Below, one piece after another: positions 21,815-56,826 of a stretch of DNA of 64,000 bases. Position 1 is the first letter of the stretch, and every line of letters begins with the position of its first letter. The notes under the pieces were generated by a model that saw nothing but the letters and a program-made list of their open reading frames with translations, did not search any database and was not told the origin of the DNA. Both the position numbers and the translations under genes were made by a program. Origin of the DNA: Chondrosia reniformis (lineage: Eukaryota > Porifera > Demospongiae > Chondrillida > Chondrillidae); NCBI GenBank assembly GCA_947172415.1, contig OX359190.1:6014001-6078000 (forward strand), read 5' to 3'.

Positions 21815-21910
21815 AGCTTAAGAGGGAAAAGGTAGACGAATGGAGGATGGAATCTCCATTAGAGTCCGAAAAAAAGGACACTTAGACGGTTGTCAGCCCG
21901 TCCACCATTG

Positions 21911-23154: not shown

Positions 23155-23915
23155 CAGAGAGTACGGTAGTACTCTCTATGTAGGGATGGTACGGGTTGTT
23201 TCGTTTTCCCCATACATTGGTATAGGAGCGAAATTCCGAATTAGGCTGAAAATCGCCGAAACGAGACTATGTAGAGTTAAATATAGAACAGCAATGCTAT
23301 AAATTGGCCTTGAAGGCAAGCGACCGTGTATCGTTGGCAAATGAACCAACTTTGAAATCTCCCATTTTCGTTTTCTTCTTCTTCATCTTCTTCTTCTTTT
23401 TCATCTTCTTCGCCCGCTGTAACTAAAAAACGAAATAAGCCTTCGGACTACTTCTTAATCGAAATTACTCTAAATTTTCCGAGCTGTATTCTTTTGTAGA
23501 AGCGAGAGCGATAACGCTATTATTGAGTATGACAGTTTTCATGGCTCCAGAGTCAAGACCCCAATAAAATCGCCATTTTAATGACGTCATAATCAGTCGA
23601 AGATTGCGAAACCAAAGTGGTTTAAAATGCAACGAATTCCTAGCTTATGCTCCATAAAAAGTACAGAAACTAGAGAACAATAAAACGTTTCTACAAAAAT
23701 AGTGAAGATGTAGGGATGGCACAAAAAGCATAGAAACAAGAAAGGGATGTTACACAGTGAAGCATTAGCTATGCATGAATCCTACAAGCAAGGGTGGGTT
23801 ATGATTCATGCATATATAGCTAATGCTTCACTGTGTAACATCCCTTTCTTGTTTCTATGCTTTTTGTGCCTTCCCTACATCTTCACTATTTTTGTAGAAA
23901 ATTTTTATTGTTCTC
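23155..23915 (-). mobile_element. Fold-back element, copy 2 (inverted relative to copies 1, 3, 4)
   Basis: The palindrome end is at the left (23156-23177, AGAGAGTAC/GTACTCTCT). Next is a non-coding body with a TTC-rich tract (about 23370-23410), then the 243-nt hairpin 23673-23915. The body is clearly the reverse complement of the bodies at 48826-49340 and 56827-57310 (shared GCGAGAGCGATAACGCTATT and ATGACGTCAT). TTAT flanks both ends (4 bp). It encodes no protein. CTATGTAGGGATGGTAC near the palindrome and GATGTAGGGATGGCAC in the hairpin form short inverted ends. Confidence 0.85.
23673..23915. repeat. 243-nt terminal hairpin of fold-back copy 2
   Basis: The arms of about 110 nt are almost perfectly complementary, from GAGAACAATAAAACG to TTTTATTGTTCTC. 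At the variable site the left arm has AAGCATAGAAAC and the right arm GTTTCTATGCTT, so pairing is kept. Confidence 0.9.
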
Positions 23916-26900
23916 TTATTTATTAGTTGTATGTACTAGTTATGTGCCAGTTGTATGTACTAGTTGTGTGTATATACTAGTTATAAATAATAGTTATGCA
24001 CTAGTTGTATATACAAGTTGTACGTTCTAGTATTATGTATTTGTTCTATGAACAAGTTGTACGTACTAGTTTCTAGTTGTATGTACTAGTTGTATGTATT
24101 AATTGTATGTACTATGTGTATGTACTATTTATAAGTGCCAGTTATATGTGTATTTACTGGTGATATGTTTGTGCACTAGGTATATGTACTAGTTGTATGC
24201 ACTCGCTGTATGTACAAGTTGGGGGTACTATTCATAATTACTATGTATATGTGTATTTAGTAGTTATATGTAGTAGATGTATATACTAGTTATATATCCT
24301 TTTTGTTTGTCCTAGTTGTATGGACTAGTTGAATGTTCTAGTTGTATGTACTAATTGTATGTGCTAGGTGCGTACTATTTGGTATGTACTAGTTGTATGT
24401 ACTAGCTGTATGTACTAGTTGTATGTATTATGTGTATGTACCAGTTGTTAATTCTTGTACTAGTTATACTATGTACTAGTTAGGTTCTATTTGTATGTAC
24501 TAGATACTTGTTGCATGTCCTAGTTGTATCAACAAGTTTTATGAACTAGTTGTATGTACTGTTTATATGTACTAGTTATATGTACCAGTTATATATACTA
24601 GTTTTATGTACACGTGGTATGTACTAGTTATCTTTACTAGCTGTATGTACTATTTGTGTGTACTAATTGTATGCAATAGTTGTAGGTTCTAGTACTAGTT
24701 AAACTAGGTACTAAATAGGTACTATATAGTTCTATTTACTAGAAACTACTTGTATGTACTTGTTAGATAAAGTAGTTCTATGACCTAGTTAAATATACTA
24801 GGTGTATGTCCTAGTTGTATGTACCAGGTGTATGTCCTAGCTGATTGTACTATTTACTAGTTTTATGTACAAGTTGTGTGTAGTAGTTCAAGGTACTAGT
24901 TTTATGTTTCCGTTACTAGTTGTAGGTACTTGTTATATGAACTAATTTTATTTGCTAATTGTATATACACGTTGAATGTACTAGTTGCATGTACATGTTG
25001 AGCGTACTTGTTCAATGTACAAGTTGTATGTATTCATTATTAGTTGTTAGTAGTAGGTGTATGTACTAGTTTCTAGTTGTATTTACTAGTTTTATGTACT
25101 AGCTGTATGTACTATGTCGATGCATTATATATTTGAACTAGTTATATTTTTATGTTTTAGTTATATGTAGTAGGTGTGTGTACTAGGTATATGTTCTAGT
25201 TGAAAGTACTAGTTTTATGTACTAGTTGTATGTACTACAACTAGCTATATTTACTAGTTTTTGGTCCTAGTTGTTTGTATTAGTTGTACGTAGTAGATAG
25301 TTGTATGTACTAGTTCTACGCACTATTTGTATGTGTGTGTACTAGTTAAATGTACTAGTTGTATGCGCTAGCTGTATGTACTAGTTGTATGTACTAGTTG
25401 TATGTACTACTTTATTGTACTGGTTACAATTGTATGAACTGGGTGTATGTACTAGCTGTTTTTACTAGTTGTATGAAGTATTTTTATGTACTATATATAT
25501 GTGTATGTACTAGGTATATGTACTACTTGTATGTACTAGCTGTATCAGCTGGTTGATATATTGAGATATGAACCAGTTGTATGTGTGCCCTAGTTCTTTG
25601 TACTTGCTAAATACTAGTTTTATGAACTAGTTGTATGTACAAGTTGTATATACTAGTTTTATGTACTAGTTGCATGTACTAGTTATATGTACTAGTTACT
25701 AGTTGTGTGAACTAGTTGTACCTACTAATTTTATGTACTAGGTGTGTGTACACTTTGTATGTATATACTAGTTTTATGTACTAGTTAAATGTAGTAGTGT
25801 TATATATATAAACACTAGTTGTATGGACTAGTTTTATGTACCCCTTCTATGTACTAGTTGTATGTACTATTTATAATTACTAGGTATATGTGTATTTACT
25901 AGTTGTATGTAGTAGGTGTATGTACTACTTATATGTCCTAGTCGTTTGTACTAGTTGTATGTTCTAGTTGAATGTACTAGTTGTAAGTACTAGTTGTATA
26001 TTCAATATGTGTGTACTGTTAGTATGTACTTGTTGTATGTACTAATTGCATTTACTAGTTGTATGCACTAGTTTTATGAAGTAGTTCTCTCTATATTTTC
26101 AAGTTGTAGGTACTAGTTATATGTAGCAGATGTATGTACTATTTGTATGTACTATGTGTTCATACTTTTTATAAGTACCAGTTATATGTATGTAGTAGTT
26201 ATATGTTTGTGAACTAGTTATATATTCTAGTAGTATGCACTAGCTGTATGTACTAGTTGTGTGTACTCTTTATAATTACAAGGTATATGTGTATTTACTA
26301 GCTATATGTAGTTGGATGTATGTACTAGTTATATATCCTAGTTGTTTGTCCTAGTTGTAGGTACTAGTTGAATGTACTAGTTTTACATACTAGTTACTAG
26401 TTGTATCAACTAGTTGTACCTACTAATTGTAAATACTAGTTGTATGAACTAGTTGGATGTACTAGTTTTATGAACTAGTTGGATGTACTAGTTTTATGAA
26501 CTAGTTGTATGTACTAGTTGTAAGTACTAGTTGCATGTATTGGTTATATGTACTAGTTAATAGTTGTGTGAACTAGTTGTACGACCTAATTGTAAATACT
26601 AGTTGTATGAACTAGTTAAATGTACTAGTTTTATGGTATATATTAGTTGCATGTACCAGTTTCTAGTTGCATGTATTACTTTTATGTACTAGTTATATAT
26701 ACTATGTGGATCCACTATTAATATGTACTAGTTTTAAAATTATGTACTAATTATATGTCATAGGTGTGTGGTAGTTATAGGTACTAGTTATATATACTAT
26801 GTGGATGCACTATTAATATGTACTAGTTTTACTAATTATATGTCATAGGTGTGTGGTAGTTATAGGTCCTAGTTTTATGTACTCGTTGTATGTACTAGTA

Positions 26901-27110
26901 GTTGTATGAACTACTTGTATGTACTATGTTTATGTACTATTTATATGTACTAGTTATATTTTTATGTATTAGTTATATGTGGTAGATGTGTTTACTAGTT
27001 ATATGTACTAATTGTAAGTAATAGTTGTATATACTAGTTGTCTGGACGAGTTATATTTACTAGTTGTGGGTACTAGTTGTATGTACTAGGTGTATGTATA
27101 TACTAATTTT
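23916..27110 (+). repeat. 13-bp satellite, forward orientation
   Basis: This is about 3.2 kb of satellite. The block at 23935-24310 reads, in reverse complement, very like 27717-28080 on the other side of the orientation switch. A short duplication is visible at about 26700-26870 (GTGGATCCACTATTAATATG and GTGGATGCACTATTAATATG). No gene is seen. Confidence 0.9.
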
Positions 27111-27716
27111 TATTATTTTTTAATTTTTAATTTTAATTTTTTATTTTTATTTTATTTTTATTTCTCTCTCAATAATAATTAACCAATTTTTTTACAACAA
27201 ATAAGAAAAATGTTGGAGAAACTAATCTGTGAAAATTAAAATACAATATTAACATAAAGTTAACGTGTAAATGCAATCAATGAATAAATTTGTACACATA
27301 AATAACTAATAATTATTACATTGAAAAGTACAATGTACGTACGTACTGAAATGTTTCAGTTAAAGGGACAAAAACAGCTCAAGTCATATTGTTTAAAAGT
27401 TACATGCCTAATCGTCTAAGGACCAACCTTGCCCTCAGAGGTGGCAAGGGGGATGTCACTGGCGAAACCACATGGTCTTTTGGATCTGGAGCCTCTGATG
27501 GCCATGATCGCTGATCTGATCAATGCGAATGAGGTCCTACATCGAAGCCACCCCATCACTTGGGAGTAGTGCAGTTTTCTTTTCTTTGCAATGGCATCAG
27601 CCACCCTTCTGAAAAATACAGTGCACTCTCTTGCCATACCCCCTGTTGTTGTCAAGACTAGGGGGTTGAACACTCCTCATTCCAATTCCCTCACTCTTTC
27701 GCCATACAAACAACAA
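27111..27716 (-). mobile_element. 5'-truncated retroelement fragment at satellite orientation switch
   Basis: On the minus strand this holds a coding remnant (27416-27707), then about 250 bp of AT-rich untranslated sequence, ending at low coordinates in an A/T-rich tail (27111-27165) of the sort left by retroposition. It separates forward satellite from reverse satellite. The family is not certain. Confidence 0.55.
27416..27707 (-). pseudogene. C-terminal fragment of a retroelement-like protein
   Basis: The readable part, about 85 residues, has FNPLVLTTTGGMARECTVF, then RKLHYSQVMGWLRCRTSFAL, IRSAIMAIRGSRS and a stop at 27416. From memory, a module of the form F-x-PLV-x-x-T-x-GGM followed by a W-(I/L)-R-C-(R/K)-x-SF-x-x-(I/L)-RS segment ends many transposon-encoded proteins in cnidarian and mollusc genomes. 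I cannot name the enzyme. It is a broken remnant with no start or catalytic domain. Confidence 0.5.
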
Positions 27717-30700
27717 GGACATATAACTAGTATATGCATCTACTACATATAACTACTAAATACACATATACCTAGTAATTATGAATAGTACATACAACTA
27801 GTACATACAGCGAGTGCATACAACTGGTACATATAACTAGTACACAACCATATAACCAGTAAATACACATATAACTGGCATTTATAAATAGTACATACAC
27901 ATAGTACATACAATTAATACATACAACTAGTACATACAACTATAAACTAGTACACACAACTATTTCATAGAACGAGTACATAATACTAGAACGTACAACT
28001 TGTATATACAACTAGCGCTTAGCTATTATTTAGAACTAGTACAGACATACAACTAGTACATACAACTGGTACATAACTAGTACATACAACTAGTAAATAC
28101 AAATAAAACAAACAATTACTACATACAACTTTTACAAACAACCTTTACATACAGCTAGTATCTACAACTACTAAATATAACTAGGACTAGTACATAAAAC
28201 TAGTGAATACAACCAGTACATACAATTAGTACATCAAAATAGTACATTCAACTAGTCCATGCAACTACGACAAACAGCTAGGATATATAACTAGTACATA
28301 CAACTACTACATATAACTAGTAAACACACATACCTTGTAATTATAAATAGTACATACAACTAGTACATACAACTAGTACATAAAACTAAAAACTAGTATA
28401 TATAACCAGCTCCCAGAATGAGTACATAATACTAGAATGTACAACTTGTATATTCAACTAGTACATAACTACTACAAACAACTAGGACATATAAATAAGT
28501 ACATACACCTACTACATATAACTTGTACATACAGTTTTTCCAAATAATTATAAATAGTACATAAAACTAGGATATACAACTAGTCCATACAACTAGAATC
28601 TACTACATACAACTAGTACCTTCCTAGCACCTAGTATAAGTAGTTCAAGAACCTACCACTTGTACATACAACTAGTACACACAACTAGTACCTACAACTA
28701 GTACTTGCAACTAGTACATATAACTAGTACCTACAACTAGTAAATATAACTAGTACTAGTCCATACAACTAGGACATACAACTAGTACACACAACTAGTA
28801 AATATAACTAGTACACAAATCTACCACATATAACCAATACATGAAATATAACTAGTACAGTTAAATAGTATAATAAACTAGAAACTAGTACATACAACTA
28901 ATATATACATAAAACTTGTACGTTTAACTAGTTCATACAACTATTATATGCAAACAACTAGTTCATACAACTAGTATTTAAAATTAGGTCGTACAACTAG
29001 TTCACACAACTATTAACTAGTACATATAACCAGTACATGCAACTAGTACATGCACCTAGTACATGCAACTAGTACATGCACCTAGTACATACAACTAGTT
29101 CATAAACTAGTACATCCAACTAGTTCATACAACTAGTATTTACAATTAGTGAGTACAACTAGTTCATACAACTAGTAATTAGTACATATAACTAGTACAT
29201 TCAACTAGTACATACAACTAGGCCAAATAACTATGATATATAACTAGTACACACACCAAATACATATAACTAGTACATACAAATATACCTAGTAATTATA
29301 ATACAACTAGTACATAGAACGGAAACATAAAACTAGTACATACAACTAGAAACTAGTCCATACAACTAGAAACTAGTCCATACAACTAGCATATATATAA
29401 CACTAGTACATTTAACTAGTACATAAAACTAGTATATACATACAAAGAGTACATACTACTAGTCCATAAAATTAGAAGGTTCAACTAATTCACACAACTA
29501 GTTGCTTGTACATTTAACTACTACTTGCGACTATGATATACAATTTGTACATACAACTAGGACATACAACTACTTCATATAACTAGTATATAGCTAGTAC
29601 ATACAACTAGTACATACAACTAGTACATACAACTAGTTCTTACAATTACTACTCCAAGTAGTACATAGAACTAGTTCTTACAATTACTACTCCAAGTAGT
29701 ACATAGAACTAGTTCAAACAACTAGTACATACAACCAGGACATACAACCAGTACATACAACTAGTATATACAACTAATGCATACCACTAGGACATACAAC
29801 TAGTACATTCCAGTAGACCATACAATTAGTAACTAGTACATACAACTAATGCATATAACTAGTCGCTAGAACATTCATTTTTATAGTACACACAATTACA
29901 TACAATTAGTACATATAACAAGTGCGTACAACTAGTACGTTCAACTAGTACATAACTATTACATAGAATTAATACATACAACTGGAACACACAACTAGCA
30001 CATAAGCAATAAATAGAACTTGTACATATAACTAGGACTACAACTAGTACATATAACCAGTACATACACATATAACTAGTATATATAACTAGTACATAAA
30101 ACTAGACTACATGCAGCTAGTACATACAACCAGTAACTAGTACATACAACCAGTAACTATTACATACAACTAGTAACTAGTACATACAACTAATTCATAC
30201 ATCTAATACATAAAACTACTACACACAACTAGTACATTAAATTTGTACATATAACTAGTACACAAATATACCACATATAACCACTACATGAAAATATAAC
30301 TAGTACAGTTAAATAGTATAATAAACTAGAAACTAGTACATACAACTAATATATACATAAAACTTGTACGTTTAACTAGTTCATACAACTAGTATTTAAA
30401 ATTAGGTCGTACAACTAGTTCACACAACTATTAACTAGTACATATAACCAGTACATGCAACTAGTACATGCAACTAGTACATACAACTAGTTCATAAACT
30501 AGTACATCCAACTAGTTCATACAACTAGTATTTACAATTAGTATGCACAACTAGTTCATACAACTAGTAATCAGTACTTATAACTAGTACATTCAACTAG
30601 TACATACAACTAGGCCAAATAACTAGGATATATAACTAGTACATACACCAAATACATATAACTAGTACATACACATATACCTAGTAATTATAGATAGTAC

Positions 30701-31087
30701 ATACAACTAGTACATAGAACGAGTACATAAAACTAGTACATACAACTGGAAACTAGTCCATACGACTAGTATATATATAATACTAGTACATTTAACTAGT
30801 GCATAAAACTAGTATATACATACAAAGAGTACATTTAACTAGTGCATAAAACTAGTATATACATACAAAGAGTACATTCAACTAGTACATAAAATTAGTT
30901 GGTACAACCAGTTCACACAACTAGTAACTATTACATTTTACTACTACATGTGACTATGACATACAACTAGTACATACAACTAGTACATACAACTACTTCA
31001 TAAAACTACTATATAGCTCTTACAAAGAACTAGTGCATATATCTTGTACAAACAACTGGTTCATATCTAGTACATACAACTAGTACA
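27717..31087 (-). repeat. 13-bp satellite, reverse orientation
   Basis: The consensus now reads ACATACAACTAGT on the plus strand. Two long similar segments, about 28811-29460 and 30258-30840, lie roughly 1.45 kb apart and share rare variants such as TAGTACAGTTAAATAGTATA. A ~47-bp local duplication sits at about 30790-30885. No gene is seen. Confidence 0.9.
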
Positions 31088-32608: not shown

Positions 32609-32877
32609 TTTAGAAACAAAAGCCTTAGTGGAGAACCTTGTTACTTCTTGCCTTAATTTACTAAGGCAAGGAGTATCTGGCTTGGACAACCCTCAGTCAG
32701 TTATGTTTTCCTTTCTTTGGGTTTTTAGCCAGAAGCCTCGGCTTTGCCTCCTTCCGGCAGCAGCAGACAGGTGCACGTCGGGCCAAAGTTGACCGTCATA
32801 ATAGGAGGGAGTACCTCCATACACAAATCCACCACTACTTTCCAGAGGTCGACAGGCAAGGACTGGGACAGGACTAC

Positions 32878-33354: not shown

Positions 33355-35245
33355 CTACAGTCTCCACAACACTATCAGTATTGCCCGGTCATGTCTCTCT
33401 TTGTAGAGAGAAAAGCCCTTGGGCTCACACATGTTTAGTATGTGTTCGACCGTTTCCATAGCCTTGCCACATTCTCTGCACATTAGGAGTCTAGAATTCT
33501 TCAGAATCCTATTTTGGTACCACCTAGTGTGCAGCACATCATCTTGGGCTTCGAGAATCAGAGCCTCAGTTTGAGATCTGAGTCTCCCCTCAGAAAGCCA
33601 CACATAAGACTCCCTATTTGTGACTTGTCTGTGGTATGAGCCCTGGTGAGACTTTTCGGCTAGGTTACTTTTTAACCTTTCAGTCTGAGCCTCCCGGAGC
33701 CCACGTGCCACTCTCCTCCATTCTCTTACACTATATTGTGAGGGATCTGTCTTCAGCCACATTTCTGGTTCTAGTTCTATTCCGTGGCTTTTCAGTATCA
33801 ATCTGGCTTCTTTCAAGACAGTCCTCCTCTGCTTTGAGCACTCCAGCCGCTTTTGGTGTTTAACCACAACAGCTATGAGTGGATCATTGGCAGAATGGAG
33901 GTATCTTGCCAGATTCACAACAGCCCTGTCGTGATCCAAAGGAAAACTACAGAGCCCTCTACCACCTTGAGAGTGAGGCAAATTCATTCTTTCAATGGCA
34001 GAGTTATAGTGATGACACTGGTACTTTCTCATGATCTTTCTCACCATTCGGTCCAGTTTTGGAAGCTCACTTTGAGTCCACTTCAAAACTGGGTAAGAGT
34101 ATCTCAATAGAGAGGCACACAACATCTTAGAGGCTTCTGCAGCATTCTTACCATTGAGGTGAGAGCCCCACACTTTGTGGAGTCTCCTCCTCAATTCGTT
34201 GATCAAGCAAGCTTTGACCTTGCTGTCATCTACCTCAAACAGTTGTTCTAGCCCTAGGTACTTATAGGTAGTACCTTTTTCAAGGCTCCTTATGGATTCT
34301 TCACTGTGTTCAGGGTTGTCTGGGCCAGCCAGAGCTTTCCCTTTTTGCATGTGAGCTGTTCCACACTTTCTCACTCCAAACCTCATTCCAATGGCATTTG
34401 AGGTTTTCTCCACACATTCCATGGCTTCCCTGAGTTTATCAGGCCCTCCAGCATATATCTTAAGGTCATCCATGTACAGCAAGTGTGACATGGTGTTCCT
34501 TTCCCATTATGCCAGAGGGTATATCCCTTGGTTCTGTTAAGAACTTGGGATATGGGAGCTATGGCCAGACAAAAGAGGAATGGCGATAGGGAGTCTCCTG
34601 GGAAGAGTCCCCTGTTATATTTAACAGGGGTGCTCCTAACCACCTTCCCCGCGGTCCTCAACTGAAGCACAGTAGCCCAGTGTTTGGAAAAGAGCTCTAT
34701 AGACCTCCGGATCCAACCTGGGCACTTGATGGTTTTTAGCACCTTCATCACCCACTTGTGAGGGACACTGTCATATGCCTTCTCATAATCGATCCATGCC
34801 ACACTAAGTGGCTTGCCCATAATTTTGGCATCTAGACCGATTGATTGATCCAGCAATAGACAGTCCACACAGCCCCACCTCCCTTTCCTCATGGCTCGTT
34901 GAGCCATAGGTAAAAGATCATTAGTGTAGGTGTAAGTGAGTAATTCTGATGCAATGTATGCTGTGACAGCCTTGTACATTGTGTTGAGACACGCAATAGG
35001 TTGGTAGTTGGCCGCACTTTTCGGGTAACCTTTTTTGGGGATGAGTAGAGTGCGACCCCTTCTAAGCCAGTCTGGGACTGACAGATCTCCGTTCACCATC
35101 CTCCGTAGTACATCTGCCAAGGCAGACTGTGCAGAGGGGAGTGCTTTCCACCAAAAAGTGTGGATGCCATCCGGCCCAGGGTCTGACCAGCTTTTTACCT
35201 TTTTCAAGGCTTTCCTCAGTTTCGTCTCATCAATGGACCTTCACA
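33355..35245 (-). pseudogene. R4-like LINE reverse transcriptase and CCHC knuckle
   Basis: Segments seen in order are WSDPGPDGIHTFWWK, GRTLLIPKKGYPKSAANYQP, IACLNTMYKAVTAYIASELL, MRKGRWGCVDCLLLDQ, motif A SVAWIDYEKAYDSVPHKW, and motif B RGLFPGDSLSPFLFCLAI. After a frameshift near 34490 come motif C LLYMDDLKIYAGG and TYKYLGLEQ. The C-terminal part has a knuckle CRECGKAMETVEHILNMC (C-x2-C-x8-H-x4-C) and LYKERHDRAILIVLWRL. Motif B has Pro where family members normally have Gln (FPGD for FQGD), a change at a conserved site. Catalytic Asp residues are present. Confidence 0.85.
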
Positions 35246-36859
35246 GGAGGTTCTACCCACCCTCTTTTTGGTTTCCTTTAGCCATTCTTTCACCCCTGGG
35301 TCGTCTTTGTTTACCTTACCAACAGTACCTACAATCTTTGTCCAAAAGTCTCTTACTACCTCAATTGAGGGAGCTTCATTGGAGGTTGGAACATTGCCAT
35401 TCATCCGGAACTTCCTTTGGGTATTCCAAAGGTGGTTTTCTTCATGGAATTTCCTGCATTCAGCCGATCTTCGCTCTTGTAGGGTCCAGACCCTGAGTTT
35501 CCCCAGTGTCCGTTCCTGAGCTCTGATCAGCACATTCAGGTTTAATGAATGGAACTCCCTCCTAAGCTTTCTTCGGAGTACTTTCTGGCATTTGGTCATA
35601 GGATTATTACTCTGTTGACACGCTATTTCCACATCCAACCAGGCAAGCAGTATTCTAAACCTAAGGCCCTTGGTCTTCCTGTCACTTATGTGACCTTCCT
35701 GTGTCTTGCTTCCCTTCTGATTATCTGATTTCCTTCCCTGGTTGCATGGCTGCGATTCGTAGGTTGTTGTTCCCCTCACAGCCATAGCAACAGAGTAGAA
35801 AAGGCAGTTCAGGTGCCAGGCTGACCTAGGGCCTTCCTGCCACTCTTTCTCCACCCAATCATTGGCCTCCTGAAGCAGTGCCGCATCAACATGGTTGAAC
35901 CGCACCGCCCCAGAGGGTTTTCTGTCAGAGAAATCTCCAGGTTTCTTTCGGAGACAGGCATCTTTTGCTTTGCCTAAAAGTTGCATCAGTTGATCATTGC
36001 CACTTGTCCTGGGACTAGGATGATCATTTGTAGGAGTTTCAACAGGGGCTGCAGGCAGCTCACCATTTTGTTCAGTCACAGCCTGAACTTGGTGAAGCTC
36101 CCCCTGCCCCTGGGCTCCCACACCTTCCTCCACAGTCTCAGTTAGGGTGGCTAAACCACAAGAGTCCGGTTCCACAAGGTTTAGTCTCGAGAGACCTTGA
36201 CCTCTTTGGATTCTACTAATTCTCGTAGTTAGCGCTACCTTTGTGGTTTTATTGTCTGGCATTTTAGCATTCCAAGCCTGGTACAACCGCTCGGCATACC
36301 CCTTTTCCATGGGCTTACTTTCTCGGTAGAGCTCCATGAGGATATTATCCCTCTGAAGGTTCCAGATCACCCCTTGGATCCTTTTCCTTCTAGAGGCCCC
36401 TTGCGATGCATCATTAACCAAATCTAAATCTCGGCTACCCATTACTTGCAGTACTACGTCTCCTACCAAGTTCCTTTTGGTTTGGAAGGCAAGGGTTTGA
36501 CCGGTCTGAGGCAAATGTGGGTATTTGCTCAGCCATTCCCGCTCTAAACACTTCTGATAGCCACCTCTTTTGGGTTCAGATCGCTCATAACAATCAATTA
36601 GTGCCCTAACCATTTCCTCGGTCCATAGGGCTGGTTGGCCCATCATGGGGACCAACGAAAGGCTATTACATTCAGGTACATCTACCTGTGAGGCACCAGT
36701 GGAATCACCTATTGTGGTTGACCCAGGGTTTTCTTCACCACTGGTGCACCTAGGCCACAGCCATGTCATTCTCATGGTGCAACGTAACCAAGTGAAGCTG
36801 CCAGACCGGGGGTTAGCCCATGCTGACAGGGAGGCTGATTTAGCCACAGGATGCCACAT
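35216..36859 (-). pseudogene. R4-like LINE N-terminal region with duplicated SANT-like modules
   Basis: This 547-residue open frame lies upstream of the RT and is joined to it through a frameshift near 35210-35245. Residues about 80-132 (ALWTEEMVRALIDCYERS, then RGGYQKCLEREWLSKYPHL) and about 169-215 (NILMELYRESKPMEKGY, then AERLYQAWNAKMPDNKTT) are two copies of one helical pattern: Y-x-x-S-x-P-x-x-x-GY-x-x-x-L-x-x-x-W-x-x-x-x-P. This looks Myb/SANT-like and may bind DNA or RNA. A Gln/Pro-rich linker, a Trp-containing segment and a basic stretch with many Arg follow. The true start of translation is unclear; the Met at 36859 is simply the first in frame. Confidence 0.65.
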
Positions 36860-36950
36860 GAGGGGCTAAGCACCCTGCTCTGTTGGGGGGTTGAACTGGA
36901 CAATACCCATCCTCTTGTCAGCTCGGAGCCATAGCCTCCAATTCCCACAA

Positions 36951-38444: not shown

Positions 38445-38534
38445 TTTGGTGGCAGAAGAGGGATTAGCCGTTGCAGGAGTAGAACGGGAATCCTTGTCTT
38501 TGTTGTATGACTACAAGGAACATATCAGAGGACT

Positions 38535-39501
38535 TTGAGTCAAGAAGGGACTGAGGAGACTTCCACTATAGCAGACCTCATGAAGATGATGATTGAGGAC
38601 CGGAAAAAGCGTGAAGAGGAGATTGCAAATGAGAGGGAGAGGCATGACCGAGAAGCGGAAGCCAGGGTACAGGAGATGGCCCGGCAGATGGAAGTAATGA
38701 GAAGTCTGGTGAAAGAGAGCCAGAAAGAACCTGAGGAAAGTGTGGCTCGGGTTGGAAGTGAGCAGGCCGTGAAGCTGACCAAGCTTACTGAGAGTGACGA
38801 TGTGGAGGCTTACTTGACCACGTTTGAGAGGATGATGGAGGCGTACCGTAGATATGGCGAAGTGGGCGTACCTCCTGGCTCCACAGTTGACAGGCAAGGC
38901 GCAGCAGGCCTATGCAGCAATGGCCATGCAAGAGGCAGGGGAGTATGAGAACCAAAAGGAAGCCATCCTCAAGTGCTACAACATCAGTGAGGAGAGTTAC
39001 AGGATGAAGTTCAGAGCTGTCTCCCGCAGGGCAGAGGAATCTTACAGTAAAATGGCCACTAGGATGATAGATTTGCTTCACAAATGGACCCATGGCTGTG
39101 AGAGACTTGCTGATGCTCTGGAGCTGTTTGCCATGGAACAGCTGCTGAACTCCGTACCCGTAGGGGTAAGGATATGGCTTAGTGAGCGGAAACCCAAGAC
39201 AGTAGCGGAAGCTGGCAGGCTAGCAAATGACTATGCCAAGGCCAGGAATTTAAAGGATTATAGAAGCAGGAGCCAGGAGCCGAGCCATGATGGACCCAAG
39301 GGATCACCTCTCATTTCCAGCAAGAGATGCCACTCCTGTGGACGAATGGGGCATCTGGCCAAAGACTGCAGGCAGGGGGAGCTGCCAAAGGCCAACAAAG
39401 GAGGCCGGGAGGCATTAGGCAACCAGGGAGAGAAGGATGGGCCCCGGTGCTACAGCTGCCAGCAGAAGGGGCACTTTGCCAATCAATGTCCCTCCATATA
39501 A
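38535..39501 (+). pseudogene. Gypsy gag remnant
   Basis: This would be the structural protein of the element. The N-terminal part is a charged coiled coil rich in Glu, Lys and Arg. The middle resembles the SCAN-like capsid fold of Gypsy gags (for example QLTGKAQQAYAAM). The C-terminal part has two CCHC knuckles, CHSCGRMGHLAKDC and CYSCQQKGHFANQC, which bind RNA. The remnant is broken and is treated as a fossil. Confidence 0.8.
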
Positions 39502-45700: not shown

Positions 45701-48583
45701 TACATACAACTAGTACATAGCTACTACATACAACTAGTATATATATACAACTAGGGCATACAACTAATACATACAATTAGTACATGCAACTACTACATAC
45801 AACTACTACATACAGCCAGTACCTACAACTAATACATTAAAGTAGTACTAACAACTAGTACATACAACTAATGCCTACTTAGTACCTAATTTAACTAGAA
45901 CTAGAATTACAACTAGTACATACAGCTAGTGCATACACGTAGAACACAAAACTTGTACATAAAACTGTCACATACAACTACTACATATAACCGGTATATA
46001 CACATATAACTAGTATATAAAAATAGTACATACACCTAGTACATACAACTAGTACACACAACTAGAAAGTAGTACATACACCTAGTTCATAGAACGACTG
46101 CATAAAACTAGAACATACAACTTATATATACAACTAGTTCATAGCAACTACATACAACTAGTATATACATACAACTAGGACGTACAACTGGTGCATAACT
46201 AGTATATACAACTTGTACATAACTAGTGCATACAACTTGTAAATAGTACGAGTATATAAAAGTACCATATACAACTGCTACATAAACAACAAACTAGTAT
46301 ATACATACAACAAGTCCATACAACTAGTACAACCAATTAGTGCATACAACTACTACATCCAACTACTACATGCAACCAGTACCTACATCTAGTAAATATA
46401 ACCAGTACTAGTAAATAGAACTAGTACATACAACTAGTACGTTAAAGTAGTACTAACAACTTGTACATACAACTAATTCCTACTTAGTGCCTAATATAAC
46501 TAGTACTAAAACCTACAATTAGTACATACAACTGGAACATACAACTACTATATACAACGAGTACGTACACATATACCTAGAAAATATAAAGAGTACATAC
46601 AACTAGTACAACAGCAAGTGCTTACAACTAGTACATATAACTAGTACACAAATATATAACTAGTTCATACAAATCGTAAATACAACTAGAACATACAACT
46701 AGTACGTACAACTAGTACATGCAATAAGTGCATACAACTAGTACATCCTAACAGTACACACAAATAGAAAATACAATTAGTACATTTAACTAGTACAAAT
46801 AGTACATTTAACTAGTACATAAAACTAGTATATACATACAAAGAGTACATACAACTAGTACAAAAAATTAGTAGGTACAACTGGTTCATACACCTTGTAA
46901 CTAGTACATTAAACTAGTACATACGACTATGACATACAACTAATACATACAACTAGTACATACAACACCTTCATAAAACTAGTATAAAGCTAGTACAAAC
47001 AACTAGCGCATACATCTTTTTCATACAACTTGTTCATATCTAGTACATACAACTAGTACATCCAACTAGTACATACAATCAGTTCATACAACTACCACAT
47101 GCAACTTGTACATACAACTAGCACCTACAACTAGTTAATATAACTAGTATATATTAGTACATACAACAAGTGCATACAATTAGTACATACAACCAGCACA
47201 TCCAGCCAGTACATAAAAGTAGGACATATCCCTAGTACATAAACATATAAATAGTACATATAAATAGTACATATAAATAGTACATACAACTAGTACAATT
47301 ACACACAACTGGTACATACAAGTAGTACATACAATTGGTATCCAGTACATACAATTAGCACCTCCCTAGTACCTAATATAACTAGGACTTGAACCTACAA
47401 CTAGTTCAAAACTAGTACATACAACTAGTATATACAATTAATCACTAGTACATACAACTAATACACACAACTTGTACATATAATTACTACATTCTATTGG
47501 TACATACAAATAGTATCGAGTACATACAACTAGTATATATAGCTAGTACATTCAACTAGTATATACAACTACTACATAAACAGGAAACTAGTACATACAA
47601 CTAGTACATAGCTACTACATACAACGAGGAAATTTATACATAAAACTAGTGCATGCAACTAAAACATACTATTAGTACATAAAACTACTACATCCAACTA
47701 CTACATACAACCAGTACCTACAACTAGTAAATATAACTAGTACTAGTACATAGAACTAGTACATACAACTAATACTTTAAAGTAGTATTAACAACTAGTA
47801 CATACAACTAATGCCTACTTAGTACCTAATATAACTAGTACTAGAACCTACAACTTGTACATACAGCTAGCGCATACACGTAGTATAGGCAACTTGTACA
47901 TACAACTGTTACATACAACTACTACATATAACCAGTACATACACAAATAACTAGTATATAAAAAAAGTACATACCCCTAGTACATTCAACATACAAAACG
48001 GACATACAAATAGTGTATACAATTAGAAACTAGTACATACAACTAATTCATAGAAAGAGTACATAATACTTGAACATACAACTAGTACATTCAACTCGTA
48101 CATACAACCAGCACAAACAACTAGGACATATAACTAGTACATATAACTACTACATATAACGAGTATGTACACATATATCTAGAAAATATAAATAGCACAT
48201 ACAACTAGTACATACAGCTTGTGCATAAAACTAGAATATATAACTAGTAGATAAAAATAGTAAATACAACTAGAACATACAACTAGTGCGTACAACTAGT
48301 GCATGCAAATAGTATATGCAACTAGTATCTAGTACATACAACTAGAATATACAAGTGGTACAAAACTAGTTCATACAACTAGTACACAGAACGTGTACAT
48401 ACAATTAGCACATACAACTAGTACTTTCAACTAGTACATGTAACAGGTACACACACCTTCTACATATAACTAATACATATGGATATAACTAGTATATCTG
48501 AATAATACATACACATAGTACATGCAACTAGTATATATATAAAACTAGTACATTTAACTAGTACATACAACTGGTATATACAA
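42786..48583 (-). repeat. 13-bp satellite, reverse orientation
   Basis: This is the longest uninterrupted satellite stretch, about 5.8 kb. Two similar blocks are visible: about 44720-45440 and 46790-47350 share GTACATTTAACTAGTACATA, ACTATGACAYACAACTA and CACCTCCCTAGTACCTAATA in the same order. Another pair is about 45690-46080 and 47560-47990. No gene is seen; short frames are repeat translations. Confidence 0.9.
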
Positions 48584-48825
48584 GAGAATAATAAACATTT
48601 TCTACAAAAATAGTGAAGAGTGAAGGGATGGCACAAAAAACACAAAAACAAGAAAGGGATGTTACACAGTGAAGCATTAGCTATATTCATGAATCATACA
48701 ACACCTTTGCTTGTAGGATTCATGCATAGCTAATGCTTCACTGTGTAACATCCCTTTCTTGTTTCTGTGCTTTTTGTGCCATCCCTGCATCTTCACTATT
48801 TTTGTAGAAAATTTTTATGATTCTC
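48584..48825. repeat. 242-nt terminal hairpin of fold-back copy 3
   Basis: The arms run from GAGAATAATAAACATTTT to AAAATTTTTATGATTCTC. At the variable site the left arm has CACAAAAACAAG and the right arm CTTGTTTCTGTG: the copy-specific C/G is paired, with one mismatch in this segment and a second just outside it. Confidence 0.85.
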
Positions 48826-49364
48826 TAGTTTCTGTACTTTTTATGGAGCATAAGCTAGAAATTTTAAACCCATTTTGGTTACGCAATCGTAGATTGAATA
48901 TGACATCATTAAAATGGCGAATTTATTGAGGCCTTGACTCTGTGGCTATAAGAATCATCATACTCAATAATAGCGTTATCGCTCTCGCTTCTACAAAAGA
49001 ATACAGCTCAGAAAATTTAGAGTATTTTCGCTTAAGTAGTAGTCCGAAGGATTATTTCGTTTTTTAGCTGCGGCGGGCAAAGAAGATGAAGAAGAAGATG
49101 AAGAAGAAGATGAAGAAGAAGATGAAGAAGAAGATGAAGAAGAAGAAAACGAAAATGGGAAATTTCAAAGTTCGTTCATTTGACAGCGGAACACGGTTGC
49201 TTCCCTTAAAGGCCAGTTTATGGCATGGCTGGTCTATGTTTAACTATACATAGCCTTTTTTGGCGATTTTCAACCTATTTCGGATTTTCGCTCATATACA
49301 AATATATAGGTAAAACAAAACAACCGGTACAATCCCTACATAGAGAGTACTACCGTTCACTCTG
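48584..49364 (+). mobile_element. Fold-back element, copy 3
   Basis: It consists of a hairpin at 48584-48825, a body with the longest purine tract of the family ((GAAGAT)n-like, about 49083-49147), and the degraded palindrome end at about 49342-49363. A perfect 6-bp direct repeat ATACAA flanks it (48578-48583 and 49365-49370). It encodes no protein. It lies in the same orientation as copy 4 and opposite to copy 2. Confidence 0.85.
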
Positions 49365-52300
49365 ATACAACTAGTACATAAAACTAGTACATACAAGTAG
49401 TACATAAAATTCGTAGGTACAACTAGTTCATAAAATTATTAACTAGTAAATATAATTAGTACATGCGACTAGTACATTCAACTAGTATATACAACTAGTG
49501 AATGCAACTAGTACATACAACTAGGATATATAACTAGTACATACACCTACTAACAAATAACTAGTACATGCACCTATACCTAGTTAATGTAAATATTACA
49601 TACATCTAGTACCTAAAGCTAGTGCATACAACTAATACAAATAACTAGTACACACACATATGAATGGTACATACCAAATAGTACACACACTAGCACATAC
49701 TACTATATAGTACGTACAACTAGTATATACAACTAATAAATATAGCGAGTTCTAATACATACAGGTAATACATACAACTAGCACTTTCAACTAGTACACA
49801 TAACTAGTAAATACAACTAGAAACTACTATATACAACTTGTATATATATAAAATTAGTACATTTAACTAGTACATACAATTGGTATATACATACAACTTA
49901 TACATACAACTAGTACATAAAATTAATAGGTACAACTAGTTCATACAACTAGTAACTAGTACATACAACTAGTACATGCGACTAGTACATACAACTAATA
50001 CAAACAACTATTGCATACAACTAGTTCATAAAACTAGTATATAGCTAGTAAAAAGAACTAGTGCATACATCTTGTACATACAACTGGTTCATATCCAGTA
50101 CATACAACTAGTATACACAACAGCTAATACAGCTAGTACATACAAGTAGTACATATACCTAGTACATACACATATATATAGTACATATATATAGTACGTA
50201 TAACTAGTATATATAAATAGTTCAAACAACTAGTGCATACACCCAGTAAATGCAAATGTAACAAGTACATATAAGTAGTACATACTATTAGTACATACAA
50301 CTAGTACATATATATAGTACATACAACTAGTACATACAACAATTTCACAAAACTATGACATGCACTAGTACATATAACTAGTACATATAACTAGTACATA
50401 CAACTAGTGTCTAGTATATACAACTAGTACCTCCCTAGTACCTAGTATAATTAGGACTAGAACCTACAACTAGTAAATACTACTAGTACATGCAACTAGT
50501 ATGTGCAACTAGTACATATAACTAGTACATTTAACTATTACATATGACTAGTACATACACATATATGTAGTACATAAATTTAGTACATACAACTAGTAGA
50601 GTAAACTGGTTCACACAACCAACAAGGAATTCATAGAACTAGTACATTCCTAGTACCTAGTATAACTTGTACTAGAACTTAAAACTAGTTCAAACTTCTA
50701 TTACATACATTTAGTACATACAATTAGGCAATAGTGCATACAACTGGTACATACAACTAGTACATACAAATAGTACATACAACTAGTACATATAACTACT
50801 ACATATGACTAGTACATACACATATATGTAGTACATAAATTTAGTGCATACAACTAGTACAGTAAACTGGTTCACACAACCAACAAGGAATTCATAGAAC
50901 TAGTACATTCCTAGTACCTAGTATAACTTGTACTAGAACTTAAAACTAATTCAAACTTCTGGTACATACATTTAGTACATACAATTAGGCAATAGTGCAT
51001 ACAACTAGTACATACAACTAGTACATACAAATAGTACATACAACTAGTACATATAACTACTACATTCAACTAGTACAAACAAATAGTATTGAGTACATAC
51101 AACTAGTACATACAACTAGTGCATACAATTAGTATTGAGTACATACAACTAGTACTAACAACTAGAACATACAACTAGAAACTAGTAACTACTAAATACC
51201 TAGCATATACAATTAGTACATAGAACTAGTTCAAGCAATTACAACATACACCTACTACATACACCTAGTACATACAACTAGAACATACAAAGAGTACCCA
51301 GAGCTACTACTTAAAACTAGTTCATATAACTAGTACGTAACTAGTACATAAAATTAGTACATAGAACTAGTTCAAACAATTAGAACATACAACTACTACA
51401 TACACCTAGTATATCCAATTTGTACATACAATTAGTACATACAACTAGTACATACAACTAGACTATACAACTATTAACCAGTACATACAACTAGTACATG
51501 CAAATAGGATATACGAATCGTACTTGCAACTAATAAATACAACTAGTACCCACAACTAGTACATATAACTGAAACTAGAACATAAAACTAGTACATACAA
51601 CTTCTACTAACAACTAGAAACAAGTACATACAGCTAGTACATTAAACTAGTACGCACAACATGTACATGCAACTAGTATGAGCAACTTGTATATACAATT
51701 AGTAGATATAATTAGTACTTATAACTACTACATACAAATAGTAACCAAAACATACAACTAGTACATTGAACTACTCCACACAACTTGTACATAAAACTAG
51801 TAAATAGTACAATCAGCTAGGACATATAACTGGTATATACAACTAGGACATACAACTGGTATATACAACTAGGTCATATAACTACTTTATATAACAAGTA
51901 CATACAAGTAGTTTCTAGTACATATCACTATATAGTACTTACCTAGTACCTAGCTTAACTAGTTCTAGAACCTACAACTAGTACATACAACTAGTGCATA
52001 CAATTAGTACACAAAAATAGTACATACAGCTATAAAATATAACTAGTATATACTACTAGTACATAAACTAGTTCATACAACTATTACATGCAACAAGTAT
52101 CTAGTACATACAAATAGAACCTAACTAGTACATAGTATAACTGGTACAAGAATCAGCAACTGGTACATACACATAGTCCATACAACTACTATTTACAACT
52201 AGTACATAGAACTAGAAACTAGTAAACACTACTAATTCATAGAACGAGTACATAATACTATACAGAACATACAACTTGAATATACATCTAGTACATAGCT

Positions 52301-52680
52301 AATATTAGCAAATAGTATATAATAACAACTATTACGTACAACTGGTACATAACCAGTACCTAAAAATAGTACATACTGCTAGTACATACCTAATAGTACA
52401 CACATATAGCACATACAATTAGTACATAAGACTAGTACATTCAACTATATAGTCCATACAACTACGACAAACAGCTTTGACATATAACTAGTACATAAAC
52501 CCACTACATATAACTAATAAATACACATTCCTTGTAATTATAAATAGTATATACAACTAGTACACACAACTAGTACATAAAATTAGTACATACAACTAGT
52601 ACATACAACTAGAAACTAATATATACAACTAGCTCACAGAATGAGTACAAAATACTAAAACGTACAACTTGTATATACAA
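49365..52680 (-). repeat. 13-bp satellite, reverse orientation
   Basis: This is about 3.3 kb of satellite. A direct duplication with a 261-bp offset starts at about 50541 and 50802 (CATATGACTAGTACATACAC... to AATTAGGCAATAGTGCATAC). The uninterrupted counterpart of the R4 insertion site is near 51765-51790. No gene is seen. Confidence 0.9.
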
Positions 52681-53017
52681 TCTGTCATCATCATTAAACT
52701 CTGGGTATTACCCCAGCCCACTCATGTCCCCTGAGGAGCGCAATGAGCTGATGGGCGGAACCGAAGTTCGCTTGACGGGAACCAGAGTCTCCCCTTAGCC
52801 ACTCAAAAAGATGGTCGAGCCATAGACAGCTGTTTCGTCCTTATTAGGACTCATCACTATGGCATACGATGGACGTTTGAGTGGCTAGTCTGCTAATAAG
52901 TACTCCCAGAAGCAATAAAGCTTGTGGTTTCCTTATCAGCAGATAAGGGGTACAGCCAAGAGTGTGGCTGACCACTAATATGGAAAAATAGGGGAACTTT
53001 AAGATATTAGTGTGTGA
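52681..53017 (-). mobile_element. Short non-coding element with hammerhead-like ribozyme
   Basis: This 337-bp segment is unlike the satellite. Read on the minus strand it starts near TCACACACTAATATC and ends ..AATGATGATGACAGA, an ATG-repeat tail. It contains a hammerhead-like fold (52796-52887) and a second inverted pair, TCTGCTAATAAG / CTTATCAGCAGA (about 52888-52926). There is no reading frame of note. It may be a PLE terminal repeat, a retrozyme or a ribozyme-bearing SINE; the sequence alone does not decide. Confidence 0.7.
52796..52887 (-). ncRNA. Hammerhead-like ribozyme with extended stem I
   Basis: On the minus strand: GCCATA, then GTGATGA (canonical CTGATGA with C3 changed to G), stem II GTCC/GGAC with loop TAATAA, GAAAC, loop AGCT, GTC, then TATGGC. 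Stem I is six perfect base pairs (GCCATA/TATGGC). It is extended farther out by a 12-bp stem, TAGCCACTCAAA / TTTGAGTGGCTA (52796-52807 with 52876-52887). Stem III is two pairs (A-U, C-G). Cleavage would follow GTC at about 52825. The C3 change breaks the known C3-G8 contact, so this copy is probably inactive or slow. Confidence 0.8.
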
Positions 53018-53891
53018 GTACACAAATCTACCACATATAACTAATAATTAAAAATATAACTAGTACATATAAATAGTACATTAACATAGTACATGCAAGT
53101 AGTTCATACAACTCCTAGTACATAGAACGTGTACATAAAACTAGGGCCTATAACTAGTACACACTTATTACATATAATTAGTACATAAATATTTAACTAG
53201 TACATATGAATAGTGCATCCATATAGTATAGTACATGCAACTAGAAACTAGTACATACAACTAAGATATACACAAAACTAGCACATGTAATTAGTTCATA
53301 CAACTATTATATACAATTAGGTCGTACAATTAGTTCACACAACTATTAACTAGTATATATAACCATTACATGCAACTAGTACATACAACTAGTACATGCA
53401 ACTAGTTCATAAACTAGTACATACAACTAGTTCATACAACTAGTATTTACAATTAGTACGTACAATTAGTTCATACAACTAGTAACTTGTACATATAACT
53501 ACTACATTCAACTAGGACACACAAATACGACAAACAACTAGGATATATAACCAGTACATACACCAGCTACATATAACTAGTAAATACACATATACCTTGT
53601 AAATATAAATAGTACATACAACTAGTACATACAGTTACTGCATACAATTAGAATATATAACTACTTCACAAACATATAAGTTATACATACATATAACTAG
53701 TACTTATAAATAGTACATATGACTAGTACATACATATATAACTAGTACATAAATTTAGTATATACAACTAGTACAGAAAACTAGTTCACACAAACAAACA
53801 AGTAGTTCATAGAACCAGTACATTTCTAGTACCTAGTATAACTTGTACTAGAACCTAAAACTAGTTCAAACATCTAGAACATACAACTAGT
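53018..53891 (-). repeat. 13-bp satellite, reverse orientation (last part)
   Basis: This is about 0.9 kb of reverse satellite. It ends at CATACAACTAGTCC, after which the orientation flips to forward with no inserted sequence. No gene is seen. Confidence 0.9.
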
Positions 53892-56179
53892 CCTTATTTA
53901 TAATTATTAGGTAAATGTGTATGTACTAGTTATATGTAGTAGGTGTATGTACTATTTATATGTCCTAGTTGTTTTTCCTAGTTGTGTGTAGTAGTTTCAT
54001 GTACTAGTTGTATGTACTAGTTGCATGTACTATTTATAATTACAAGGTATGTGTACTTACTAGTTATATGCAGTAGGTGTATGTACTAGTTATATGTCCT
54101 AGCCTTTTGTCGTAGATGTATGGACTAGTTGAATGTACTAGTTTTATGTACTAATAGTATGTACTAGTTGTGGGTACAATTTGATTTGAACTGGTTTTGT
54201 GTACTAGTTGCATGTACTAGTTGTATGTACTAGTTGTGGGTACTGGTTGTATTCACTAGTTTTATGTACTAGTCCTAGTTATATTTAGTAGTTGTAGTGT
54301 ACAAGCTGTATGTAAAAGTTTTATGTAATAGTTGTATTTACTAATTGTTTGTTCTATTGGTATGTAATAGTTGTATGTACTAGTTATGTACCAGTTGTAT
54401 GTACTAGTTAAATGTATATACTAGTTGTTAATATTAGCTATGTACTAGATGTATATTCAGGTTGTATGTTCAATATAGTATTATATACTTGTTCTATGAA
54501 CTACTAGTATTAACTAATTTCTAGTTGTATGTACTAGTTGTAAGTACTAGTTGTATGTACTATGTGTATGGACCAGTTGTTGATTCTTGTACTAGTTATA
54601 CTATTTACTAGGTAGGTTCTAGTTGTATGTACTAGATACTTGCTGCATGTACTAGTTGTATGTACTAGATACTTGTTGCATGTTCTAGTTGTATGAACTA
54701 GTTTTATGAACTAATTGTGTGTACTGTTTATATGTACTAGTTATATGTACCAGTTATATGTACTAGTTTTATGTACTAGTAGTATGTACTAGTTATATTT
54801 ACTAGCTGTATGTACTATATGTGTGTACTAATTGTATGCACTAGTTGTATGTAGTAGTTGTATGTACTATTGCCTAATTGTAAGTACTAGTTGTGTGTAC
54901 TAGATGTTTGAACTAGTTTTAGGTTCTCGTACAAGTTATATTAGGTGCTAGGAATGAACTAGTTCTATGAACTACTTGTTTGTTTGTGTGAACTAGTTTT
55001 CTGTACTAGTTGTATATACTAAAGTTAAGTGGTAGTTATATGTGTATGTACTAGTCATATGTAATAGTTATATGTACTAGTCATATGTAATAGTTATATG
55101 TACTAGTTATATGTACTAGTTGCATGTACTTGTTGTATGTACTGGTAGTATATACTAGTTGTAAATTCTAGTCCTAATAATACTAGGTACTAGGGAGGTA
55201 CTAGTTGTATATACTAGACACTAGTTGTAGGTACAAGTTGTATGTACTAGTTATATATCCTAGTTGTATGTACCAGGTTTGTGTAATTGTTGTATGTATT
55301 AGTTGTGTGTACTACTTATATGTACTAGTTGTATGTACTAGTTGTATGTACTAGTTGTATGTACTGCTTATATGTATTTGTATGTACTGGGTGTATGTAC
55401 TAGTTGTTTGTACTAGTTATATGTACTAGTTGTACGTACTATTTATATGTACTATATATATGTGTATGTACTAGGTATATGTACTACTTGTATGTACTAG
55501 CTGTATTAGCTGGTTGTATTTACTACTAATTGTATGTACTAGTTGTATTTACTAGTTGTAAGTAGTAGATATGAACCAGTTGTATGTACAAGATGTATGC
55601 ACTAGTTCTTTATTCTAGCTATATACTAGTTTTATGAACTAGTTTAATGTACTAGTTGTATGTACTAGTTGTATGTACAAATCGCAAGAACTAGTTATAT
55701 GTACTAGTTTCTAGTTGTATGAAATAGTTGTACTATTAATTTTAGGAACCAGGGGTATATTAGTTGTATGTATATGCCAGATGTATGTACTAATTTTATA
55801 TATATCCTAGTTGTATGTACTGGTTTCTAGTTGTATTTACTAGTTTTTGGTATTAGTTGCATGTACTGTTTGGATGCACTATTTATTTGGAACTAGATAT
55901 ATTTTTATGCATTTGTTATATGTAGTAGGTGTGTGTACTAGTTATATGTACTAGTTGAAAGTACTAGTTGTATGTACTAGAACTAGCTATATTTACTAGT
56001 TTTAGGTACTCGTTGTATGTTTCAGTTGTATACAATAATTGCATGTGCTAATTGTATTTACACGTTCTGTGTACTAGTTGCATGTATATACTAGTTGTAT
56101 GTACTAACTATGTACTAGTTGTATGTTCTAGTTGTATGTACTAGATACTCGTTGTATTTACTTTTTGCATGTCCTTTTT
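53892..56179 (+). repeat. 13-bp satellite, forward orientation (after second switch)
   Basis: This is about 2.3 kb of satellite. Blocks here recur about 6.3 kb downstream: 54420-54860 resembles 60735-61150, and 54940-55230 resembles 61320-61600. This indicates a long higher-order unit. No gene is seen. Confidence 0.9.
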
Positions 56180-56527
56180 GGGCGCCATAGTCGCCCCTAT
56201 ATTGTTTTCAGAAATTATGTTAACGTATGGCTTCCTGTTCGTAGTCTTGTATATATATCTTTCAAAAATGGCGGACGTGCGCTAGCTTTCGTTTTCTAGC
56301 TTAAAATTAGCTTTCTCTTCCTTAGCATAGAACATTGAACGAACGAAATGGACTTAAAAACCACCCTTGCTAATACTATGCAACGTAAAGCTTGCGCAAA
56401 AACGTTTTCTACGAGATATGGCCTTGAAAAATTGACGGCCAACAAGAGTCAATCGGAAATCAGTTAACCGGATATCTATTAGAACCAGCCAAGTAGTATG
56501 AGTTTACTTAGGGGCGCCTGGCGCCCC
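56180..56527. mobile_element. GGGGCGCC-ended short TIR element (MITE-like)
   Basis: This is 348 bp of unique sequence. The left end GGGCGCCATAGTCGCCCCT and the right end AGGGGCGCCTGGCGCCCC are inverted with respect to each other over about 18 bp, and each end is itself GC-rich and partly palindromic. The inside is non-coding and includes AAAATGGCGGACGTGCGC. The first ~85 bp are nearly the same as 63740-63820. No clear target duplication is found. Confidence 0.7.
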
Positions 56528-56583
56528 ACAAGTTTTTTAAACTCGAACTACTTGTTTTATGTGTGTGAACTAGTTATATACTA
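56528..56583 (+). repeat. Short satellite remnant between two insertions
   Basis: These 56 bp start ACAAGTTTTTTAAACTCG and continue in satellite-like sequence ending ATACTA. The ATACTA at 56578-56583 is the left copy of the target duplication of fold-back copy 4. Confidence 0.7.
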
Positions 56584-56826
56584 GAGAACAATAAAAATTT
56601 TCTACAAAAATAGTGAAGATGTAGGGATGGCACAAAAAGCAGAGAAACAAGAAAGGGATGTTACACAGTGAAGCATTAGCTATATATACATGAATCATAC
56701 AACACCCTTGCTTGTAGGATTCATGCATAGCTAATGCTTCACTGTGTAACATCCCTTTCTTGTTTCTCTGCTTTTTGTGCCATCCCTACATCTTCACTAT
56801 TTTTGTAGAAAATGTTTATTGTTCTC
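56584..56826. repeat. 243-nt terminal hairpin of fold-back copy 4
   Basis: The arms are complementary over about 110 nt, from GAGAACAATAAAAATTTT to AAAATGTTTATTGTTCTC. The copy-specific site is AAGCAGAGAAAC on the left and GTTTCTCTGCTT on the right, fully paired. Short frames across it are translations of the hairpin. Confidence 0.9.

Follow-up and report, generated by a model that had tools for sequence, protein, structure and literature searches.

The stretch considered here, 64,000 nucleotides (nt) of contig OX359190.1 from the demosponge Chondrosia reniformis (positions 6,014,001 to 6,078,000 of the forward strand; hereafter the window), contains four copies of a non-coding element that ends in a long hairpin, and the two arms of this hairpin differ between copies in a partly paired manner. 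A sequence-only reading had described the effect in three of them (copies 2, 3 and 4), where it is real but thinner than was claimed; copy 1, a diverged relative lying outside the range which that reading covered, turns the thin signal of arm covariation into a strong one. The explanation towards which we lean is that one arm was copied from the other in the source lineages and that the arms decayed independently once a copy had been inserted. The earlier observation is partly confirmed by our analysis, and its interpretation is partly supported. All results on the element rest on four copies, namely those matched by blastn with copy 2 within the window.

A non-coding element with a terminal hairpin

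Copies 2, 3 and 4 are insertions of one non-coding element of about 750 to 780 base pairs (bp), which can be aligned from end to end (blastn and MAFFT; coordinates in Table 1). The element begins with a small hairpin (a 9-bp stem with a loop of 4 nt), followed by the motif GTAGGGATGG, by a CTT-rich simple repeat in its middle, and by a long terminal hairpin of about 245 nt, the outer limit of which is the 3' end of the element. Copy 1 presents the same layout, and it is tied to the other copies by this layout, by its matching 5' end and by its outer hairpin arms. The family is presumably one of small, non-coding, non-autonomous mobile elements. The motif GTAGGGATGG with at most one mismatch is matched 13 times in the window, against 1.39 expected, and all 13 matches fall inside the four copies. 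The loop of the copy 1 hairpin (399-423) carries a near-copy of this motif, GTAGGGATCG, at 414-423, which is perhaps a trace of the hairpin's making.

When the simple repeat and the first 37 bases are set aside, the bodies of copies 2 and 4 differ by 3.6%, and that of copy 3 differs from the others by 12.5 to 13.1%. The small 5' stem varies as well: all nine pairs form in copies 1, 2 and 4 and seven of nine in copy 3, and one of the pairs reads T-A in copy 1 but G-C in copies 2 and 4. A segmental duplication of element-bearing satellite was rejected, because the flanking sequences of copies 2, 3 and 4 show no alignment comparable to that of the element. An assembly artefact is also unlikely, because the four copies stand at separate places and have different, partly decayed arms. 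Exact-pattern scans of viral and genome contig collections with the hairpin, the 5' end and the 13-bp satellite of the window gave no match. The literature text matches listed for GTAGGGATGG look unrelated, judged by title, and a search of the literature on double-hairpin elements turned up nothing relevant.

Paired and unpaired changes in the hairpin arms

The strong case is provided by copy 1, whose arms, 172 nt each and separated by a 24-nt loop, are identical at 171 of 172 positions. For the comparison with copies 2 to 4, the first 105 of the 172 arm bases were aligned to the first 85 of about 101, and the majority base of the six arms of copies 2 to 4 was taken as the reference. Among the 79 ungapped columns, 57 are the same as the reference, 22 differ from it in both arms, and none differs in one arm only, so that chance alone is rejected for this copy; independent arms would give about 2 matching coincidences (d × d/n/3), against the 22 seen. 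The alignment is heavily gapped, which leaves the individual columns less certain than the overall result. Furthermore, the 24-nt length difference between copy 1 and copies 2 to 4, together with smaller gaps, occurs in both arms. When the outer arm of copy 1 was scored against the arms of copies 2 and 4 (eight comparisons, 2000 letter shuffles for each), none of the shuffled sequences scored as high as the true arms in seven comparisons, and one did in the eighth.

In copies 2 to 4 the arms measure about 101 nt each, and the six of them align in 102 columns, 12 of which are variable. Two of these 12, columns 61 and 7, are paired in all three copies. The base of column 61, alike in both arms, is T for copy 2, C for copy 3 and G for copy 4, which bears out the earlier remark that three different bases occur at one site, each with its complement; with the A of copy 1, all four bases are found at this column, each with its partner. 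The partner, which had been placed about 200 nt away, is in fact closer, the T at 23731 and the A at 23857 of copy 2 being 126 nt apart. Column 7, which the earlier reading does not mention, has C on both arms of copies 2 and 4 and T on both arms of copy 3. As for the other variable columns, both arms of copy 3 are changed in column 41, where the bases are unmatched; in column 14 copies 3 and 4 have one variant in common, found on the right arm in the former and on the left arm in the latter; and in the remaining eight a single arm of a single copy is changed. Copy 3 has two such changes on its right arm, at columns 58 and 63, on either side of the paired site 61. It follows that the general claim, that the same arm position varies among copies 2 to 4 and yet stays paired within each, holds for column 61 but extends to only 2 of the 12 variable columns.

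Arm differences inside a copy number 3, 6 and 2 in copies 2, 3 and 4 (mean 3.7), and differences between copies in the same arm number 6, 5 and 6 for the left arm and 8, 2 and 7 for the right one (mean 5.7); the expectation of fewer differences within than between copies is thus modestly borne out. When the right-arm changes were placed at random, at least two matching columns arose with p = 0.002 (200,000 trials, free placement), and with p = 0.005 when changes were confined to the first 64 columns. Copies 2 to 4 have 11 unpaired cells, of which eight do not pair (one of these is a 1-nt insertion) and three are G-U. Across the 102 columns, no unpaired difference is common to the same arm of two copies, a comparison in which three copies give little power. 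The arms of copy 3 diverge from those of the others by 5.9 to 6.9%, about half the divergence of the body. The predicted RNA folding energies for copies 1 to 4 are -302.0, -178.3, -167.1 and -187.0 kcal/mol, respectively.

Proposed copying between arms and its alternatives

According to the mechanism we propose, an arm would be copied from the opposite arm through quasipalindrome correction, in which DNA synthesis switches template inside the hairpin, or, by an alternative route, through conversion between the inverted arms. Such correction would act in source lineages that are still transposing, and in an inserted, silent copy the arms would decay independently, giving rise to unpaired, copy-specific differences. 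The templating of arm by arm is favoured because the 24-nt length difference is paired and because 15 of the 22 paired changes in copy 1 are transversions. Arm copying accounts for the substitutions and the length difference alike; moreover, this share of transversions, near that of the body (26 of 57 changes for copies 2 and 3, and 10 of 16 for copies 2 and 4), gives no sign of a route through G-U. Among the options that had been put forward from the sequence, the templating of one arm by the other is therefore the one that fits best. The lack of any unpaired difference common to the same arm of two copies, over the 102 columns, fits decay after insertion, and the paired change in the small 5' stem, between copy 1 and copies 2 and 4, is counted in favour of arm copying as well. 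The arms may, in addition, be under some constraint in the source lineage.

Arm copying may be recurrent, or it may have taken place once in each family (copy 1 on the one hand, copies 2 to 4 on the other) when the hairpin was formed. Judged from the four copies, it is more probably recurrent, because both families have alignable hairpins at the same end and because copies 2 to 4, to which an older right-arm bulge is common, have two paired columns. The sequence-only reading held that any of the mechanisms it considered would reveal the making of the element, which is an overstatement, because template switching at replication, or arm conversion, requires nothing specific to transposition.

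A number of observations weigh against this explanation. There are four copies and few events, no tract boundary is seen in these copies, and the hairpin of copy 1 could have been made once, without recurrent correction. In copies 2 to 4, 10 of the 12 variable columns are one-arm or unmatched. Near the loop, outside the 102 columns, these copies share the bulge confined to the right arm (AT in copy 3 and ATAT in the two others), which has stayed uncorrected; the inner stem also has one-arm changes there in copies 3 and 4, and adding them and the bulge to the count would reduce the paired share. Two changes in the 5' stem of copy 3 are uncompensated, and the arms of copies 2 and 4, which differ by 5.0% and 2.0% against 3.6% in the body, show no slowing. 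Finally, four columns vary in both arms, an excess over free placement (p = 0.0009, 100,000 shuffles), and some sites may be hot, because two of these four columns are unmatched; if only the 12 variable columns are taken to be mutable (hot-site null), at least two matching columns arise with p = 0.12. Chance alone is thus moderately unlikely for copies 2 to 4 under random placement, yet compatible with them under the hot-site null, and the claim that covariation is not expected of independent arms stands on copy 1 more firmly than on the three copies from which it was drawn.

Hot sites would also have a part in a rather unlikely alternative, in which the hairpin was formed once in each family by inverted duplication of the 3' end and was never corrected later, the two paired columns being such sites. 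The hot-site probability and the excess of columns variable in both arms agree with it, as do the near-perfect arms of copy 1, such as a young palindrome would have, and the weak similarity between the inner arms of copy 1 and those of copies 2 to 4 (1.2% of 2000 shuffles reach the score). However, the hairpin lies at the same end in both families and its outer arms can be aligned, which suggests descent of the hairpin itself, and three bases at one paired site in three copies would require at least four independent hits.

Selection on the fold alone, of an RNA or of a single-stranded DNA hairpin, would have the arms mutate independently and favour compensating second changes, and we regard it as unlikely. 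It would predict transitions by way of G-U and few mismatches; three of the 11 unpaired cells are indeed G-U, but the other eight do not pair, so that this option of the sequence-only reading, taken alone, fits less well. Each of the 15 transversions among the 22 paired changes would have to pass through a mismatch, it is difficult for two independent events to produce a 24-nt length difference that is matched in both arms, and the arms of copies 2 and 4 are not slowed with respect to the body. What speaks for selection is that divergence is lower in the arms of copy 3 than in its body, that the short 5' stem also covaries when copy 1 is compared with copies 2 and 4, and that, in the extract of their report that we cite, the authors who described the DINE-1 element proposed compensatory mutations for its 3' stem (PMC2374699).

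Very unlikely, in our opinion, is that the element moves as a single strand whose folded-back 3' end copies the left arm outward from the inner stem by self-primed extension, remaking the right arm and rebuilding the hairpin at each transposition. The outer arms are compatible with such snap-back synthesis, inasmuch as none of the unpaired differences in the 102 outer columns recurs in the same arm of two copies, and the common bulge sits inside, by the loop, where priming would spare it; yet no reason is seen for copying to halt at the element's own end, ordinary correction in the source lineage predicts the same data, and three copies have low power for detecting shared mismatches. The whole hairpin of copies 2 to 4 was probably not made afresh each time, because the right-arm bulge near the loop is common to them, and the snapped-back strand proposed earlier would thus be limited to the outer arms. 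If the hairpin were rebuilt at each transposition, the outer arms would be matched at insertion, and the differences between left and right arm would date it.

Sequence context and known systems

The window looks eukaryotic: a degenerate 13-bp minisatellite is scored in 161 of its 256 bins of 250 bases, in both orientations, and retroelement pieces, recognized by Pfam matches of their frames, are interspersed among the satellite blocks (Table 1). The minisatellite is TATGTACTAGTTG-like; its long blocks change strand and are linked by long inverted matches, the longest of those listed between blocks in 20000-60000 being of 493 nt at 84%. The pair of frames with RVT_1 and GIY-YIG similarity presumably recalls Penelope-like elements. 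Within the second reverse transcriptase, PF00078 scores above the cut-off in 34386-35240 and below it in 33358-34506, and the minus-strand frame 35219-36865 has no Pfam match. In the window no tRNA was found, and there was no Rfam match at the gathering threshold.

Table 1. Features of the window, with positions counted from its first base
Feature	Position	Strand	Remarks
Copy 1, diverged relative of the element, same layout	227-1358	-	blastn 5'-end match at 1324-1360, trinucleotide repeat, 3' hairpin
Copy 1 hairpin, left arm	423-594	-	172 nt
Copy 1 hairpin, right arm	227-398	-	172 nt
Copy 2 of the element	23155-23916	+	blastn, MAFFT alignment
Copy 2 small 5'-terminal hairpin	23156-23177	+	9-bp stem, GGTA loop
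Copy 2 5' subterminal GTAGGGATGG	23180-23189	+	
Copy 2 hairpin	23672-23916	+	left arm 23672-23772, right arm 23816-23916
Copy 3 of the element	48583-49364	-	blastn, MAFFT alignment
Copy 3 hairpin	48583-48826	-	left arm 48726-48826, right arm 48583-48684
Copy 4 of the element	56583-57336	-	blastn, MAFFT alignment
Copy 4 hairpin	56583-56827	-	left arm 56727-56827, right arm 56583-56683
Tandem array, A+T-rich unit of about 250 bp	1360-3460		copy 1 inserted in the array
Reverse transcriptase-like frame and GIY-YIG frame	14520-17196	minus	RVT_1, below Pfam cut-off
Broken retroelement without long terminal repeats (non-LTR)	19073-21817	minus	endonuclease PF03372 and reverse transcriptase PF00078 in separate frames
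Another reverse transcriptase, broken frames	33355-36865	minus	PF00078
Gag-like fragment	38836-39501	plus	SCAN and CCHC zinc-knuckle matches; abrupt end in satellite

The known systems are compared here as described in extracts of the reports cited. The closest layout we could notice is that of DINE-1 and HINE (non-autonomous Helentrons), which are non-coding and combine subterminal inverted repeats with a short inverted repeat close to the 5' end, a simple repeat in the interior and a 3' stem-loop (PMC2374699, PMC4067079), all of which have counterparts in our element; moreover, the sequence of the DINE-1 3' stem-loop differs among species while staying paired (PMC2374699). Subterminal inverted repeats identical over at least 11 bp (12-15 in HINE, 13 in DINE-1) are present, ATGTAGGGATGG on both sides of copy 4 and AAGTAGGGATGGC on both sides of copy 1, with one mismatch at the 3' site of copy 2 and at all three sites of copy 3. 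However, the hairpin arms are of 101 to 172 nt here, against 5 to 11 in DINE-1/HINE, and the hairpin contains the 3' subterminal repeat, whereas the DINE-1/HINE stem-loop follows that repeat and precedes the 3' end; between the 3' subterminal repeat and the 3' end we could read by eye a candidate stem of 3 to 4 bp, against 5 to 11 bp. The spacing is different from that of mite HINE, where the 5' repeat lies 2 to 4 nt from the 5' end and the 3' one 38 to 60 nt from the 3' end; here the distances are about 23 nt and about 32 to 38 nt.

The insertion sites were also considered. Copy 1 lies inside the tandem array of about 250-bp units, and the neighbouring units thus supply its unoccupied site; compared by eye with three of them (at 2333, 2590 and 2842), it has no TT at the junction, different from the TT target of Helentrons, and its target is CTTATATATTGC, with a 2-bp AT repeat. 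The 3' ends of copies 1 to 3 (TTTAA, CTCTTA and CTCTTG) depart from the CTRR of canonical Helitrons, and the CTAG of copy 4 would fit it, the exact ends of the element being uncertain. In transposons with terminal inverted repeats (TIR) and in MITEs the target duplication has a constant length; the direct repeats that flank copies 2, 3 and 4 here, of 4, 6 and 6 to 7 bp respectively, may reflect a duplicated target, a weak hint because the surrounding satellite gives such repeats at random (random joins in it yield a flanking repeat of at least 6 bp in 9.8% of 50,000 trials). With only 2 bp in copy 1, target duplications were rejected as a marker of class. Since the 5' spacing, the target of copy 1 and the hairpin, in its size as in its position, do not agree with DINE-1/HINE, we do not assign the element to that group.

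With Galileo and Tetris, which are of Foldback type, the element shares its long inverted repeats. The terminal repeats of GalileoN-1 and -2 have more than 99% identity inside one copy and diverge by about 7% from copy to copy, a pattern which matches the one described here, and GalileoN-4 and -5 show the reverse, attributed to ectopic recombination (PMC2775673); in Tetris, the TIR-220 repeats cluster by copy in two of three complete copies (PMC4079207). The arms of Galileo are at both ends of the element, whereas here both long arms are at the 3' end and the short GTAGGGATGG-type repeat is all that the two ends have in common; different from Galileo, neither a transposase nor a 7-bp target duplication is shown for our four copies.

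The process towards which we lean has its own precedents, since template switching makes or restores matched stems in RNA genes (PMC8794818), and quasipalindrome template switching is described in a yeast reporter with short arms (PMC3820800). There, too, the opposite arm is copied and matched stems are restored or created, although these studies concern a mutational process and not a family of elements. Paired changes in hairpin arms invite a reading in terms of selection on the fold, and it is the combination of paired substitutions with a paired length difference that points to copying; in addition, paired changes, from the source, and unpaired ones, from after insertion, could act as a clock inside a single copy. 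Such behaviour is already reported for similar elements, and our case adds an example and not a new principle, because published work on RNA stems contains the principle, and that on DINE-1 and Galileo the pattern.

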